NCBI GenBank assembly: GCA_947177635.1
Contig: CAMWVQ010000021.1
Span: forward strand, 1-41,173
Reading direction: 5' to 3'
DNA from: an uncultured Porphyromonadaceae bacterium
Lineage (GTDB): Bacteria; Bacteroidota; Bacteroidia; Bacteroidales; Muribaculaceae
DNA length: 41,173 nucleotides
Position 1 is the stretch's first letter; every line of letters begins with the position of its first letter. A model generated the notes under the pieces. The model did no database searches, was not told the origin of the DNA, and was given only the letters and a program-made list of their open reading frames with translations. The position numbers were made by a program, and so were the translations under genes. This document shows, one piece after another, positions 1 to 5,787 of this stretch.

Positions 1-1087
1 TCTTGATCTGCATGGGGTAGCCCATCCAGCCGAAGATGTCGATGTTGTCCCATCCCTCCTTGTTGTCGTTGCGGGGGGGGTAGTAGTTGATGCGGACTTT
101 GTGGTAGTAACCGTTGTGGTCGTTGCCTTCGCCGCCGCAGTTTGCGCCGTAGAGGTCGGGCTGCTCTTCGGGAACGAGGATTGACTCCAGGGTGGAGAGC
201 TTGGAAACCTCCTTGGTGCGGAAGTTGGCGGGCTCATCAAGCACGAGGCCGTCGCGGTTGCCGAGGATGTTGGTCGAGAACCAGCCGTTCAGACCGAGGC
301 AACGGGTGCCGATGATGGGGGCGAAACCTGACTTGACGAGGGTCTGGCCGGTCTTGAAGTCCTTGCCTGCGATGGGCATCTTGGTCTTCTCGGCGAGCTC
401 CCACATTGCGGGGATGTCGACGGTGGTGTTGGGGGCGCCCATGATGAAGGGTGCGCTTTCGGTGAGGGCTGCGTAAGCGTAGCACATGGAGGGGGCGATG
501 TGCTCCTTGTCGTCGGCCTTCATGGCTGCCTCGAGCTGGTCGAGGGTCATGTGGATGTTCTCGTCAACGGGTACATAGACCTCGGTGGAGGCGGCCCAGA
601 GGACAACCACGCGGTCAACGCCGTTTTCTTTCTTGAAGTTGCGGATGTCTTCGCGGAGCTGCTCTACCATCTCCCAGCGGGTCTTGCCGACCATGATGTT
701 CTCGCCGTCGAGACGCTTTGCGTAGTTGGGGTCGAAGGCAGCCTTCATAGGCTTGATTGCCTCGAGCTCATCCTTCACGGGGTTGATGTCTTTCTCCTTG
801 AGGACTTCGGCGTGAATGGCCGCCTCATAGGCGTTTGCGGGATATACGTCCCACGCGCCGAAAACGATGTCGTTGAGATCTGCGATGGGAACGATCTCGT
901 TGTATTTGAGGTATTTCTTGTTTTCGCCTTCTCCGACGCGGATTTTGTCGTACTGGGTCATTGAGCCGACAGGCTTGGCCAGACCTTTGCGGGCCATCAA
1001 CACACCGGTCATAAAGGTGCTGGTGACAGCGCCGAGACCAACGACTAATACACCGAGCTTGCCCTCGGCTTTCTTAACGTTACTCAT
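1..1087 (-). CDS. ino1: myo-inositol-3-phosphate synthase (3' end outside window)
   Basis: Partial gene: the start (ATG at 1085-1087) is present and the C-terminus lies beyond the left edge. It would convert glucose-6-phosphate to inositol-3-phosphate with NAD, the first committed step to inositol lipids, in the cytoplasm. The N-terminus shows the Rossmann segment VLVVGLGAVTSTFMTGV. Family segments follow: WAASTEV, NTTVDIPAMWELAE, IAGKDFKTGQT, and the LGLNGWFSTNILGNRDG block. About 362 residues are visible of the usual 430 or so. It lies downstream of the CDP-alcohol phosphotransferase/PAP2 operon but has its own promoter about 110 bases upstream, so inositol phosphate supply and lipid assembly could be regulated separately. 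Family assignment is firm from the motifs; use in lipid synthesis is inferred from the neighbours. Confidence 0.95.
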   Translation of the reverse strand, partial: MSNVKKAEGKLGVLVVGLGAVTSTFMTGVLMARKGLAKPVGSMTQYDKIRVGEGENKKYLKYNEIVPIADLNDIVFGAWDVYPANAYEAAIHAEVLKEKDINPVKDELEAIKPMKAAFDPNYAKRLDGENIMVGKTRWEMVEQLREDIRNFKKENGVDRVVVLWAASTEVYVPVDENIHMTLDQLEAAMKADDKEHIAPSMCYAYAALTESAPFIMGAPNTTVDIPAMWELAEKTKMPIAGKDFKTGQTLVKSGFAPIIGTRCLGLNGWFSTNILGNRDGLVLDEPANFRTKEVSKLSTLESILVPEEQPDLYGANCGGEGNDHNGYYHKVRINYYPPRNDNKEGWDNIDIFGWMGYPMQIK

Positions 1088-1204
1088 TTTAAATAGTATG
1101 GTTTGTTTTTAGTTGGCAACTTTAGAGTTGGAATGATTGGCTGTCGACTGCCGCTTTCGCAGGCAGAGAGATGTGGAGCTGAACGGCCAAAGCAAAATTG
1201 CCCC

Positions 1205-1235
1205 CAAAAGTACGGAGTTATTTCGAACTGTGAAA
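1205..1235 (-). promoter_or_regulatory. Predicted promoter of inositol-3-phosphate synthase
   Basis: On the minus strand TACTTTTG (1205-1212) matches the Bacteroidetes -7 element TAnnTTTG, with a T-rich -33 candidate about 19 bases upstream. It would start a transcript near 1198 and leave a leader of about 110 nt. The rest of the 1088-1447 gap holds an imperfect inverted repeat, GCCATAA (1380-1386) with TTATGGC (1437-1443), around a GC-rich palindrome. This could end the upstream operon, but no U-tract follows. Confidence 0.5.
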
Positions 1236-1447
1236 ATATTTTTGACGAAATATTTGTTTCCTTTCGTGAATAAATGTTTAATCTCGCCCTATTTGGTTAA
1301 AATGAGTTTAATGGGGCGTTTTGGGGTGCTGTGTTGTTAAATTATGTGAAGACTGTTCGCAGGCAAAAATCCGGGATTCGCCATAACGCGACACTTTTAG
1401 CGGGGGCGCCCCCGGAGCAATGTCAGGCCGGGACGCTTATGGCTCGC

Positions 1448-2407
1448 TTAATGTTTGTTAACCTTTGCCGGATTCACATATCGGGCGTAACGGTCGATGA
1501 AACGGGAGAATGCGGGAATCTGCATCAGGCCGTATTCGAAGATGGCGTAGGCAAGGAGGCTGCATAATATGCCGAGCGACACATCGATGATGTAATGGTG
1601 GGAGGTGTAGACGGCTGTGAACCATATGCCTACGGTGATTACGGCGAGGGCGCCCCTTATCCATGCGGGAGATTTGGATTTCATCGCATAGATGAATGCC
1701 ACGAAGGTGTAGGCGGAGTGGAGTGAGGGGACGGCGGCGAAGACATTGGCGTTGCGGCCATAGAGGCCGTGGAAAATGCCCAGTCCGGTCATATCGTCGA
1801 AAGCGCCGAGCCCGGCAACCTCCCCGGGGGTGGTGAGGTCGAGTCCGAAGCCGTGGAGGGCCACATACCATGGGGGCGCGGCCGGATGGATGTAATATCC
1901 GGCGAAGCCTATGAAGTTGACCAGCAGGAAGACAAGGGCGAAATGGAGGTAAATCCTGCGCTGTCCGCCGAAATAGAGCCAAAGGCCGAAAAGAATCGGC
2001 ACAGGTACCCAGCAGAGGTAGAAGAATCCGCCCAGGAAATCAAGCAGGGGGGTGGTGTGGAGGGCGAAGAACTCGTTGGGGGTGAGGCGCGAGCCGTCGG
2101 CGAGGGTGATTCCGAAGAGAGCCTTCTCGGTGTTGTATATCCCCTCGATGTCGACGGGGTTGACCTCGTAGTTGTGGACGATGTTCATCCAGTCATACGA
2201 GATGCCGAAGATGATGAAAGGCAGCAGGGCCACGACCACCTTGCGGGATGTGTGGCAGGCGAAGAAAAGTGCGGCCAGGAGCAGGGCAAGCCAGAGATGC
2301 TCGGTGCGGAACCCTACACACAGGGCTGTCACTGAGAGCCATACGGCGAGGGCGACGACCACGCTTGTCGTCTCGCGGCAAGAGGGAAGTGTCATCCTTG
2401 GGGTCAT
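1448..2407 (-). CDS. PAP2-family membrane enzyme, Aur1-like (candidate inositol phosphorylceramide synthase)
   Basis: A 319-residue polytopic membrane protein with about six hydrophobic segments. It carries the PAP2/Aur1 signatures: YYIHPAAPPWY (171-181), PSLHSA (227-232) and SHHYIIDVSLG (269-279), giving the catalytic His pair and Asp. In yeast Aur1 these residues move phosphoinositol from phosphatidylinositol to ceramide. Bacteroidales make sphingolipids, so transfer of phosphoinositol to dihydroceramide is the best-supported role; a lipid phosphate phosphatase is the alternative. The start at 2407 is chosen because ATG overlaps the stop of the upstream CDP-alcohol phosphotransferase gene (ATGA), which implies translational coupling. 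A longer reading frame to 2632 exists, but its first 75 residues are Arg/His/Pro-rich shadow sequence of that gene. Confidence 0.85.
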   Translation of the reverse strand: MTPRMTLPSCRETTSVVVALAVWLSVTALCVGFRTEHLWLALLLAALFFACHTSRKVVVALLPFIIFGISYDWMNIVHNYEVNPVDIEGIYNTEKALFGITLADGSRLTPNEFFALHTTPLLDFLGGFFYLCWVPVPILFGLWLYFGGQRRIYLHFALVFLLVNFIGFAGYYIHPAAPPWYVALHGFGLDLTTPGEVAGLGAFDDMTGLGIFHGLYGRNANVFAAVPSLHSAYTFVAFIYAMKSKSPAWIRGALAVITVGIWFTAVYTSHHYIIDVSLGILCSLLAYAIFEYGLMQIPAFSRFIDRYARYVNPAKVNKH

Positions 2408-3117
2408 TTCTTCTCTTCTTTCTTGTCGGCGGAGAGGGCTGCGCGGCAGACGCCGACGCGGGCGAACGCGGTGATGTTGGCGAAGAGGGCTATGACGGCC
2501 ATGGCGATTATGAGTATCGTCATCGCGGCGTGGGGGGTGTTGGGGGAGGCCACGCCGGTGATGCCGCAGGCGAGGCAGCCAAGCGAGGTGACCACGACGC
2601 GTTCGGGGCGCTGCATGAAGCCTACCTTGCATTCGATGTCCAGGCCTTCGGCGCGGGCGCGGACATAGCTGACCATGATTGAGCCCACCAGGGCGACGAA
2701 TGTCACAAGCGCACCGATCGGGTAACCTGCCATTATCAGGAAGTAGCTGAGCGCGCCGAGAGTCAGCAGCTCGCAGTAGCGGTCGAGGACGGAGTCGTAG
2801 AGGGCGCCGAAGCGCGACTCCATGTTGCCCAGGCGGGCCACTTGCCCGTCAAGCATGTCGAAGAGCGAGAACAGGATGGTGACGGCGCCACCCCAGGTGA
2901 TGAGGTCGAACCTCAGGTGGGTGGGGTCGATGGCGGCCAGGTAGCCTGCCCACGCGATTATGCAGGCGGCCGCGAGGTTGCCGAGCAGGCCTATGGTCGT
3001 CACTATGTTGGGGGTTACTCCGAGGCGTATCAGAAATTTAACAAAAGGGTTGATGATGAAATAGATACCCTGCTGTATTCCGTCGCGTTTTTTCTTGAAA
3101 GTATTCTTGGCGGTCAT
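2404..3117 (-). CDS. CDP-alcohol phosphatidyltransferase (candidate phosphatidylinositol-phosphate synthase)
   Basis: An integral membrane protein of 237 residues with the full CDP-alcohol phosphotransferase motif DGx2ARx8Gx3Dx3D at residues 90-112 (D90, G91, A94, R95, G104, D108, D112). Such enzymes condense CDP-diacylglycerol with an alcohol or alcohol phosphate. Beside an inositol-3-phosphate synthase and an Aur1-like enzyme, the likely acceptor is inositol phosphate, giving phosphatidylinositol phosphate. Acceptor choice is inferred from context, not readable from the motif. The C-terminal tail is Lys/Glu rich. The gene overlaps both neighbours by 4 bases (ATGA junctions at 3114-3117 and 2404-2407), a sign of a coupled operon. 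A dedicated phosphatase for the intermediate is not seen here and may lie left of the window. Confidence 0.9.
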   Translation of the reverse strand: MTAKNTFKKKRDGIQQGIYFIINPFVKFLIRLGVTPNIVTTIGLLGNLAAACIIAWAGYLAAIDPTHLRFDLITWGGAVTILFSLFDMLDGQVARLGNMESRFGALYDSVLDRYCELLTLGALSYFLIMAGYPIGALVTFVALVGSIMVSYVRARAEGLDIECKVGFMQRPERVVVTSLGCLACGITGVASPNTPHAAMTILIIAMAVIALFANITAFARVGVCRAALSADKKEEKK

Positions 3118-3725
3118 TTGTCGCTTTTGTTTTTCTTCTTTTTCAAGGTCAGCGCGTCGACCATCCTTATGGCGAATGGGTCGAAACGTGTCGGCCGGTA
3201 CACGAAATTCTTCTGCATGACGAAATTCCAGGCCAGGGAGACGATGAGCGACACCGACAACCGGGCGAACGCGAAGATTCCGTCAGGCTTTATCCAATGT
3301 ATGTTGGTGATGAGTTCGAAACGTTGCAGCCCCTGCTCCAGGAGGGTGGTGCCCCCGAGGTTGAGTATGAAGCTGCCTCCCCAGATGAGGAGGTATTTGA
3401 TGGCCACTGCCTTGACCGAGCAGTTGTCGGCCTGGAAGGTGAACTTGTAGTTGACGATGCAGTTTACGATGCCTCCCACCACGAGGCCGATGGCTGTGGC
3501 CAGGAAGGTGCGCATCGGGGCTGACCCCAGGGGGGAGAAGACCCAGGCGTAGAATACGAAACACACCCCCATGTCGGTCCAGGACGCGAGCTGGGATGAG
3601 ACCGAGGAGCGGAGGAAGGTGAAGATGCCTTTCCCGTGAAGAAACTTGTCGGCGACTTTGTTTGACAGTGTCTTTATGCCCATCGGATATTGCAGGAGGT
3701 TGCTTTTACGGTGTTGAAAATTCAC
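3114..3725 (-). CDS. GtrA-like membrane protein
   Basis: A 203-residue protein with four predicted membrane segments. The segment GLVVGGIVNCIVNYKFTFQ is characteristic of the GtrA family, small membrane proteins linked to lipid-linked sugar translocation or polysaccharide modification. Within this operon it might help flip or handle an inositol or glycosyl lipid, which is inference from position. The longest frame starts with GTG at 3725, 9 bases after the ATP-grasp stop. An ATG at residue 16 (3680) is an alternative start. The C-terminus is Lys rich and overlaps the CDP-alcohol phosphotransferase start by 4 bases. Confidence 0.8.
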   Translation of the reverse strand: MNFQHRKSNLLQYPMGIKTLSNKVADKFLHGKGIFTFLRSSVSSQLASWTDMGVCFVFYAWVFSPLGSAPMRTFLATAIGLVVGGIVNCIVNYKFTFQADNCSVKAVAIKYLLIWGGSFILNLGGTTLLEQGLQRFELITNIHWIKPDGIFAFARLSVSLIVSLAWNFVMQKNFVYRPTRFDPFAIRMVDALTLKKKKNKSDK

Positions 3726-3734
3726 TGGATTGTG

Positions 3735-4580
3735 TTACTGTCGACGGTCTTTTATCGCGGCCATCACAGCTTTTGCGATGTTGGTTGCCGCCTCGGCACG
3801 GCATGCCGAGAAGCTGGGCCAGTCGTTGAAGTCGATTATGCTCAGGGAGCCGTCCTCGGCCTGGATGCACTCGCCGCCGTAGACGATGAGGTTCAGCTCC
3901 TTGGCGGCACGGCGGCAGATTGCCTTGAGGGCCTCGTCGGTGCGGCGGGTCTCCTCATCCTTCGGCTTGACGGTCTCGGGCTCGTAGGGGCGGAACCAGT
4001 GGAAGAACGGAGTGTCGGCCACTCCGTAGAATTTCACGAGCTTTCCGGGAAGGTGGCGCGAGATGACGGCCCTCTTGAAGCCGCGCAGGAAGTATTCCTG
4101 AAGCACGTCCTGGGCCTCGGAGGGGGTGCGGACATAGCTGACATCCTCGGCGTGCTGGGCGTGGAAGTCGCCGCGCTTTATCCAGCATTGGCTGAACCCG
4201 AGTTTCTGCAACCGTCCCTTGACAACCTCGTCGGTGTCGACGATGATGCTGGGGGGGTAGGGGATGTTCGAGCCAAGGAGGATGCGGGCCTGGCGCTCGC
4301 GGATGCAGTTCTCGATGCCGTATCCCGAGTTTATGACCAGCTGTCCCTGCTCTTCAAGCGACTGGAGCAGGTCGGTGGAACGGCGCTCGCGGCACATGTT
4401 GATTATCACGGGCTCGGTGACCGCCCCCGAGCAGAATTGCTCCTCGGAGTATATGCGCACCTCGCAGCCGCGTTTACGCAGCTGCTCGGCCACGGTGTTG
4501 AGAATCGTGGCGTCGTTTCCGACATGGTTTGGGGAGAATACCCCGGCTCGCATTATGGCGGCTATCTTGGTGGTGGCCAT
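3735..4580 (-). CDS. ATP-grasp-like enzyme of unknown substrate
   Basis: A 281-residue soluble protein. The N-terminal third resembles a pre-ATP-grasp Rossmann-like domain. WIKRGDFHAQH in the middle supplies a candidate ATP-binding Lys, and the C-terminal IIDFNDWPSFSACR carries the D/N metal-ligand pair expected of ATP-grasp ligases. These enzymes activate a carboxylate through an acyl phosphate and join it to an amine or thiol, or in some cases phosphorylate a substrate. The substrate cannot be read from the sequence. It is the first gene of the operon with GtrA, the CDP-alcohol phosphotransferase and the PAP2 enzyme, so it may modify the inositol lipid or its precursor. The ATG start at 4580 follows its own predicted promoter by about 20 bases. 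Confidence 0.75.
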   Translation of the reverse strand: MATTKIAAIMRAGVFSPNHVGNDATILNTVAEQLRKRGCEVRIYSEEQFCSGAVTEPVIINMCRERRSTDLLQSLEEQGQLVINSGYGIENCIRERQARILLGSNIPYPPSIIVDTDEVVKGRLQKLGFSQCWIKRGDFHAQHAEDVSYVRTPSEAQDVLQEYFLRGFKRAVISRHLPGKLVKFYGVADTPFFHWFRPYEPETVKPKDEETRRTDEALKAICRRAAKELNLIVYGGECIQAEDGSLSIIDFNDWPSFSACRAEAATNIAKAVMAAIKDRRQ

Positions 4581-4603: not shown

Positions 4604-4635
4604 CAAAGTTAGCTCATTTCGTGGAAACTCGCAAA
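4604..4635 (-). promoter_or_regulatory. Promoter of the ATP-grasp/GtrA/PIP-synthase/PAP2 operon
   Basis: The minus strand reads TTTG (4632-4635), 20 bases, then TAACTTTG (4604-4611), a near-perfect Bacteroidetes sigma promoter. Transcription would begin only about 15 bases before the ATG at 4580. Confidence 0.75.
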
Positions 4636-5082: not shown

Positions 5083-5112
5083 CAAAGTTAACAAATTGCG
5101 GTGACAAAACAA
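5083..5112 (-). promoter_or_regulatory. Promoter of the SemiSWEET gene
   Basis: The minus strand has TTG (5110-5112), 19 bases, then TAACTTTG (5083-5090). It lies downstream of the hairpin at 5161-5186, so transcription of the SemiSWEET gene restarts after that terminator. The leader is about 85 nt. Confidence 0.75.
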
Positions 5113-5154
5113 GTTCACTCGGTGAAAAGGCGGCCTTTTCGGTGGCTGACGGCA

Positions 5155-5641
5155 AAAATAAAGCCGTGACCCTGAAGCCACGGCTTGGTTGGAATTCACA
5201 TGGTTGCAGAAACATCTGATTCAAGCGCATCCGCTCCGGTTTTCGAGAGAGGAGTGAGTTCCGAAAGGATTTTAACGCCGGTAATGAACGCGTTTCATCG
5301 CGAAGCATGGTCACTGTTCCGTTTCTTCTGGCGGCCGGTTCCCCCAACACACATACATATCATCATGAAAACTTCAGCATATTGCCTTGTTCACTATCAC
5401 TATGACAAATTGTCCGGGAGCAGCCCTCGACGGGCTTCGCCGGGGACATGGAGTCAAAAGAACCGAAAGTCAAAGTCCAAGATAAGAAGCCTCGCGGTTT
5501 CCATAAAATTGGAACCGGCCGGCCATGGCCGCCTGCTTCCCGGAGAGAGGTCACCGGAGGTTCGGTGGGGACGGGAATCCCGGAGAGAGAATCGCCTTCC
5601 GGCAGGAGAGAGGGCGCCATGGAAACGGTCCGTTGCCAAAT
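5155..5641 (-). ncRNA. Candidate long structured non-coding RNA with CUCUCUCC repeats
   Basis: The unit has its own consensus promoter (5648-5679) and ends at a hairpin with a U-rich tail (5161-5186), giving a predicted RNA of about 485 nt. It lies between the kinase stop (5788) and the SemiSWEET promoter (5083-5112). No convincing protein is encoded. In the RNA sense, CUCUCUCC occurs exactly three times (complements at 5605-5612, 5582-5589, 5542-5549), with a near copy at 5244-5254. The exact copies are separated by small hairpins: GCC-GGAA-GGC (GNRA-type loop), CGGG-AUU-CCCG and CACCG-N6-CGGUG. A longer stem-loop spans 5411-5448. I looked for RNase P, tmRNA and SRP hallmarks and found none. 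Function unknown; the repeats in exposed linkers suggest a protein- or RNA-binding scaffold. Confidence 0.5.
5161..5186 (-). terminator. Terminator of the candidate ncRNA
   Basis: AAGCCGTG (5161-5168) and CACGGCTT (5179-5186) form a perfect 8-bp stem with a 10-nt loop. On the minus strand the stem is followed by TATTTTTG, a U-rich tail, so it acts on leftward transcription. Confidence 0.65.
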
Positions 5642-5647
5642 CCACTA

Positions 5648-5679
5648 CAAAATTACGGATTTGATTTGAGAAAACCAAA
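5648..5679 (-). promoter_or_regulatory. Promoter of the candidate ncRNA
   Basis: On the minus strand TTTG (5676-5679), 20 bases, then TAATTTTG (5648-5655) matches both promoter elements. The predicted start is near 5641. No reading frame of convincing protein character follows. Confidence 0.65.
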
Positions 5680-5787
5680 ATGTAACGGATTGACTCCTTG
5701 AATTTTAACCAAAACGGCCGTTTTTTAGCATTTCTTTTCCAACGATTCGTTAAAATTAAGAATCCATTCAGACGTCTTGTGGGTGTT

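Follow-up and report, generated by a model that had tools for sequence, protein, structure and literature searches.

Two trans-encoded small RNAs described in Bacteroides, GibS and FopS, are 145 nt and about 65–70 nt long, respectively, as reported in PMC7366714 and PMC11697453. The OLE, ROOL and GOLLD RNAs extend over several hundred nucleotides, comprise several domains and have functions that are presented as poorly understood (PMC12286853). From the order Bacteroidales itself, a candidate structured RNA, Bacteroidales-1 (RF01693), has been put forward (PMC2864571). The structured RNA candidates in a human-microbiome list have lengths of 27 to 219 nt as given there, so that RNAs of about 490 nt would escape that list (PMC8040213).

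The locus described here lies on the minus strand of the window, by which we mean the whole stretch of 41,173 nucleotides of Muribaculaceae DNA that was analysed. An earlier note had proposed a stand-alone non-coding RNA at this place, and the promoter, the terminator and the signs of selection on the RNA support that proposal. The gene is apparently a real, new, lineage-restricted and structured non-coding RNA of about 491 nt (5154..5644), its start placed from the promoter and its end from the terminator, and its homologs have corresponding ends. They occur in three further species of the genus, here called G008, G004 and G013. All features below are on the minus strand, and values for the four species are given in the order own species, G008, G004, G013.

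A conserved unit between a promoter and a terminator

The RNA is preceded by TTTG-N20-TAATTTTG (5648..5679), a strict match to a TTTG/TAnnTTTG pattern that we take to be the Bacteroidetes promoter consensus. With a spacer of 19–21 nt (TTTG-N19-21-TAnnTTTG) the strict pattern matches twice in the 41 kb window against 0.13 expected in shuffles, which bears out the consensus promoter of the earlier note; the second match, at 4604–4635, stands ahead of the gene at 3735–4580. The −7 box, TAA(T/C)TTTG, is kept in all four species. Alignment of the four upstream regions further reveals a conserved A/T-rich element (AAAnAAnTnCTAAAA...TTTnGTTAAA, 5704..5737), a candidate site for an activator or transcription factor, which is kept in every species, including G013 despite the different gene upstream of the RNA there.

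At the other end, a terminator scan recovers the U-tailed hairpin that had been recognized before, an intrinsic terminator with its stem at 5161..5186 and its tail running to 5154. It is kept in the three relatives, with a double change in 2 of its 12 pairs among the four species; with one such site in the scanned region and 1.9 expected in shuffles, the mere presence of a terminator there carries no significance. Downstream of the terminator, the promoter that had been assigned to the next gene is present as the promoter-like TTG-N19-TAACTTTG (5083..5112). The TAACTTTG box lies between the RNA terminator and the next gene in all four species, and a TTG stands 19–21 nt from it in three, the exception being G004. 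At the level of sequence, the RNA gene has a promoter and a terminator of its own in each of the four species.

Over aligned columns, the RNA of the own species is identical to those of G008, G004 and G013 at 0.83, 0.825 and 0.744 of positions. These values exceed identity at fourfold sites in the two neighbour genes (G008, 0.63 and 0.56; G004, 0.51 and 0.44; G013, 0.58 and 0.43) and, in the two relatives compared, aligned-column identity past the terminator (G008, 0.48; G004, 0.43). The 135–137 aligned positions ahead of the RNA have identities of 0.78 and 0.69. The conserved stretch is bounded by the promoter and the terminator, and its conservation is independent of the neighbours on the upstream side: in G013 a biotin-ligase-like gene, as judged from its sequence, precedes the RNA in place of the histidine kinase gene, and promoter, upstream element, RNA and terminator are all kept despite the exchange. 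An origin as the 3′UTR of the upstream gene was considered and set aside because of this different upstream gene. Most of the conservation resides in a core (about 5330–5523) and a 3′ domain (5191–5262), both absent from the earlier note.

The absence of a plausible protein, as previously claimed, also stands. An 85-aa open reading frame at 5363–5620 has no Pfam match, and a long frame common to all four species was not found; a 61-codon frame starting with TTG has the same start and stop in the own species and G008, with diverged sequence, and is shortened in G004. Rfam 15 yields no match for the RNA in the window at gathering score and, at E values up to 10, six matches at the RNA, every one below its cut-off, and the sole match over the homologs' loci, BjrC1505, scores 22.5 bits where its cut-off is 50. 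Among the titles listed in literature searches on small RNAs of Muribaculaceae, Muribaculum or Duncaniella, none describes this RNA.

A DNA search found the RNA in 4 of the 14 genus genomes, namely the own species, G008, G004 and G013. These carriers are the species whose neighbour proteins are the closest among the genus genomes: the protein of the gene at 3735–4580 is 95–98% identical in RNA carriers and 85% in the next genome, and the histidine kinase is 90–93% and 76% identical, respectively. A sequence-only model of the core (R1), applied to 397 family genomes, recovers the four known homologs at 173–198 bits; 38 of these genomes have a match at E up to 0.1, and in 34 of them the match is weak, at 20.6 bits or less. 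Among 393 genomes of the order, matches at E up to 0.001 number three, two of them from the own species and G004 and the third scoring 20.9 bits; neither G008 nor G013 is among them, possibly lying outside this sample. Searches over 40 genomes used stricter filters and can lose weak matches. Of the 34 weak family matches 10 were re-searched and 8 of these viewed as alignments, as was the order match. Several resemble the antisense of ordinary gene starts (ATGAAAA, with a signal-peptide-like reading), and we judge those inspected to be due to chance.

The first DNA search had a match at E up to 1 in 56 of 61 genomes, the best beyond the four true ones at E 0.001, and a profile built from the four RNAs and applied to 48 loci surrounding the neighbour genes, mostly those of relatives, found only the own species, G008 and G004. 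A pattern scan of genome contigs returned four, three of them apparently those of G008, G013 and G004; the fourth, from Odoribacter (L125), has no match to the model, reads as coding and was rejected. Of three scans of viral contigs, two pattern scans found nothing and the third gave one weak match (L129; 13.6 bits over 46 positions). A distant search of phage records also returned nothing, and a plasmid search gave a single 33-nt match at E 0.04.

Predicted folds of the core and its surroundings

When the core is cut out alone (145–180 nt), the same plan is predicted in all four species, consisting of a long closing helix, P1, and two hairpins, P2 and P3. P1 joins CGGUUCUUUUGACUCC (5450..5465) to UGUGUGUUGGGGGAACCG (5336..5353) with 13 pairs that are invariant in the four species. 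The variable hairpin P2 (GUCC...GGAC, 5412..5447) reads GUCU/AGAC in G013, a C-G to U-A change, and an additional hairpin is inserted beside it in G004 and G013; the two inserts are unrelated in sequence and both form stems. The conserved hairpin P3 (5357..5407) is present in all four core folds, and its pairs are nearly invariant. Around the core, an end-to-end helix, P0, is predicted between GGAUUU (5638..5643) and AAAUCC (5267..5272), the latter situated before the 3′ domain; five of its six pairs are invariant in the four species and 95.8% of cells are paired. The 3′ domain (5191..5262) is closed by GGAA(N)UCAC/GUGA(N)UUCC, with eight closing pairs invariant in all four.

The predicted stability of these folds varies among the species. 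For the isolated core, z is −1.37, −1.41, −2.8 and −2.36, and an equally stable fold is reached by 18, 16, 2 and 0 of 200 shuffles, values that are not significant for the own species and G008. At full length, z is −0.81, −2.84, −2.24 and −4.75 with 60 shuffles each; the own full-length fold is not stabler than shuffles, at z of −0.95 and −0.81 in separate runs. The duplex energy of P1 is reached by 12, 7, 5 and 60 of 1000 shuffles.

A long-range helix, PL, is predicted between GCCGGCCGGUUCC (5511..5523), which could alternatively form a local hairpin with 5496–5502, and GGAACCGGCCGCC (5330..5342). It has 12, 12, 13 and 13 of 13 pairs in the four species; G013 shows a C-G to U-A double change, and the one mismatch in the own species and G008 is a pair in G004 and G013. 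The GGAACCG part of the 3′ strand of P1 is common to PL. The invariant strand GGGGGAACCG can pair either with an inner CGGUUC, forming P1, or with an outer CGGUUC, forming PL, and the two pairings are mutually exclusive. As both CGGUUC partners are kept, an exchange between the PL and P1 folds is suggested, although program energies are no proof of it. With the core forced into either state, PL is favoured by 2.8, 3.1, 5.1 and 5.4 kcal/mol; with the full-length RNA forced likewise, the difference is 0.4, 1.0, 0.8 and 5.1 kcal/mol. The own minimum-energy fold, at −167.2, contains neither helix, and the forced folds come to −164.1 with P1 and −164.5 with PL.

Covariation, counted over four sequences only, is too sparse to choose between the folds: the PL version has 3 double-changed pairs and the P1 version 2, numbers that 75 and 177 of 500 shuffles match or exceed, and RNAalifold covariation terms of +1.56 and −0.19 give no support. 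In the named structures 91.9% and 92.8% of cells are paired, compared with at most 50.4% when the pairing partners are slid; this control is biased towards any structure that was built from the same sequences. The pairing of P2 is understated in alignment A5, which places the G004 and G013 insert at the wrong end of that hairpin, and likewise in alignment A3; two P3 stems stand partly out of register in the pairing test, at 66.7% and 75% paired, and the RNAalifold and single-species core folds give the better description of P3. Where stems were placed manually, two positions (P2c of G008 and P7 of the own species) fell on wrong occurrences of short strings, and from that comparison only the pair letters are taken.

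CU motifs, candidate partners and neighbouring genes

The earlier note centred on three exact copies of CUCUCUCC set between mini-hairpins. All three copies are indeed exact, at 5605..5612, 5582..5589 and 5542..5549, and only the last is conserved in the relatives, being invariant in all four species. The three mini-hairpins fare similarly, exact in the own species and absent from all three relatives. The copy number of CUCUCUCC in the four homologs is 3, 1, 1 and 1, and G008 has one shorter near copy, CTCTCC; the segment that holds the two non-conserved copies differs in G008 and G004, and most of it is missing from G013. Because two of the repeat copies and all three hairpins are absent from the relatives, the array is a feature of the own species. 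The near copy of the repeat that had also been pointed out proves to be a second conserved CU motif, CCUCUCUC (5245..5252), likewise invariant in the four species. In these sequences, the conserved state is thus one CU motif before the core and one after it.

Over the whole window, three copies of CUCUCUCC are not unusual (1.98 expected, with 33 of 100 shuffles reaching 3). Within the 491-nt RNA, at least two copies were seen in 0 of 5000 dinucleotide shuffles, and some 8-mer is present three times in 38 of 2000 shuffles of the RNA. As for the claim that the motifs are exposed, it agrees with prediction for 5542–5549, whose probability of being unpaired is 0.66, 0.55, 0.82 and 0.86 against means of 0.37–0.39; 5245–5252, at 0.44, 0.47, 0.34 and 0.27, is not predicted to be especially open. 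One of the two non-conserved copies is predicted to be open (0.71) and the other is not (0.35).

Candidate protein partners were sought in the 14 genus genomes, of which 11 have a completeness of at least 90%. CsrA (PF02599) was found in none of the 14, with E. coli, B. subtilis and T. maritima as positive controls; nor were RRM_1 proteins, the type to which the Bacteroides RNA-binding protein RbpB belongs (PMC11697453), with Bacteroides ihuae among the positive controls. That neither was found in these genomes makes both the comparison with CsrB and a direct comparison with RbpB unlikely to hold.

Turning to possible mRNA targets, the site GGAGAGAG-N7-ATG had 3, 3, 2 and 0 matches in the four genomes against 1, 0, 1 and 1 in controls, an enrichment that is not convincing. 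A second candidate, pairing antisense to start codons (ATCATCATGAAAA, at most one mismatch), had 13, 13, 19 and 10 matches against 1, 0, 1 and 2 in controls and was rejected: in each genome the RNA gene accounts for one of the matches, and many genes begin with ATGAAAA, so that these matches are not evidence. The 14 match sites of ATCATCATGAAAA that were read revealed no convincing shared target, and duplex energies computed at this step do not enter the assessment.

The gene next after the RNA encodes a PQ-loop protein (Pfam PF04193; 4715..4993, outside the RNA) and has no match in the G013 genome. The gene at 3735–4580, which has no Pfam match, follows the RNA in all four species, either directly or after the PQ-loop gene, and this constant position is the main reason for keeping a local role in view. 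Further downstream lie GtrA-like, CDP-alcohol phosphatidyltransferase and PAP2 genes as assigned by Pfam, and we take the protein at the window's left edge to be a myo-inositol-phosphate synthase, judging from its sequence and the gene order. The gene group on the minus strand of window positions 1–4580 resembles the inositol-lipid cluster of Bacteroides (BT_1522-1526), for which a CDP-diacylglycerol-inositol phosphatidyltransferase, a Gtr-A protein and MIPS are described (PMC9246714).

Elsewhere in the window, flanked by genes for ApbE and for a response regulator, lies its only match to the FopS small RNA (RF04319; 13181–13258, minus strand, 64.1 bits against a cut-off of 56). This match occurs in a genus in which proteins of the RRM_1 type, the type of the FopS partner in Bacteroides, were found in 0 of the 14 genomes.

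Possible roles and relation to known RNAs

The reading that we prefer, and to which we give about an even chance, is a stand-alone structured non-coding RNA gene of about 490 nt that is confined to one small clade within a genus and that would regulate in trans. Action in trans is probable and is our inference, whereas promoter, upstream element, terminator, conservation, core fold and upstream independence are each read from the sequence itself. The RNA would owe its cohesion to the folded core and the 3′ domain, which would also display a conserved pyrimidine motif; CUCUCUCC before the core, and possibly also CCUCUCUC in the 3′ domain, would serve as a single-stranded contact, which might either base-pair with purine-rich segments in target mRNAs or hold a protein. 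The GGGGGAACCG strand, together with the two upstream copies of CGGUUC, could act as a switch between two folds. The fullest version of this proposal, that of an RNA born in this lineage whose two exclusive long-range helices make it a switchable regulator or scaffold acting in trans through a pyrimidine contact, in a setting where neither CsrA nor RRM_1 was found, is one we hold only tentatively and consider rather unlikely to be right in every part.

Several other explanations deserve weighing. The RNA might be a cis-acting 5′ leader that ends at the terminator and attenuates the genes after it, with the alternative pairings as the switch, and both the gene that follows it in all four species and the retention of the mutually exclusive PL and P1 pairings would fit such a leader. 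We nonetheless regard it as unlikely, as in all four species a TAACTTTG box separates the terminator from the next gene (with TTG at promoter spacing in three), the gene at 3735–4580 has its own strict promoter at 4604–4635, and the terminator stem, more than 140 nt downstream of the strands engaged in alternative pairing, takes no part in that pairing. An architectural RNA of the ornate kind, which like OLE, ROOL or GOLLD would act as a scaffold or a self-assembling particle and not by pairing with mRNAs, seems to us improbable as well: the families of those three RNAs have no Rfam match here, and the viral scans and the phage search brought up nothing except the one weak match of 13.6 bits. 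What speaks for such an RNA is its size, its several domains, the invariant blocks of the core and the hairpin inserts of G004 and G013, which differ in sequence and both form stems.

A messenger or dual-function RNA is a more doubtful proposition. It would encode a tiny protein, MMICMCVGGTGRQKKRN-x-D-x-ASR (MMICMCVGGT..., 5366–5295), whose frame shares its start and its stop among three of the four species, and in those three species 5 of 7 changed positions, counted manually in alignment A5, fall at third codon positions. That bias is suggestive only, since several other frames were considered alongside this one, and G013 has lost the tail, so that its frame continues to an unrelated end. 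The first ten codons are moreover invariant in all four species even at third positions, which points to the RNA. Titration of a protein in the manner of CsrB, as the earlier note envisaged for the CUCUCUCC array, is very unlikely and went unsupported: the array counts 3, 1, 1 and 1 copies, its scaffold hairpins are absent from the three relatives, and CsrA and RRM_1 were each found in 0 of 14 genus genomes, even though three exact copies in the own species, with 0 of 5000 shuffles having two or more, are unusual for the composition. Least probable of all, to the point of being nearly dismissible, is decayed or chance intergenic DNA without function; occurrence in four species only, and an own fold no better than shuffles, would agree with it, but conservation exceeds that of fourfold sites and of the DNA past the terminator, and the stretch is bounded by promoter and terminator.

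An RNA of 490 nt that is found in one small clade and strongly conserved within it offers gut Bacteroidales a clear and testable example of a large RNA gene that may be young. Its position just upstream of inositol-lipid-like genes likewise makes a link to that membrane chemistry testable.

Among known systems, CsrB and RsmZ carry a repeated GGA motif. The RNA described here resembles them in concept, with exposed copies of a motif set between hairpins, but its motif is CU-rich instead of GGA and the array is not conserved. Bacteroidales-1, although a candidate from the same order, has no match to the RNA at gathering score or at E up to 10, and the Rfam model of FopS has no match at the RNA locus. 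With OLE, ROOL and GOLLD the RNA shares a length of several hundred nucleotides, several domains and a poorly understood function (PMC12286853), but extensive covariation supports those families and is not seen in the four sequences here, and for this RNA no phage link was found and homologs were found in four species only. GibS and FopS differ from it above all in being far shorter than its roughly 490 nt. As far as they are described in PMC7366714 and PMC11697453, they are like it in being intergenic, in having a Bacteroidetes promoter and an intrinsic terminator, and in presenting a conserved motif that is predicted to be single-stranded.
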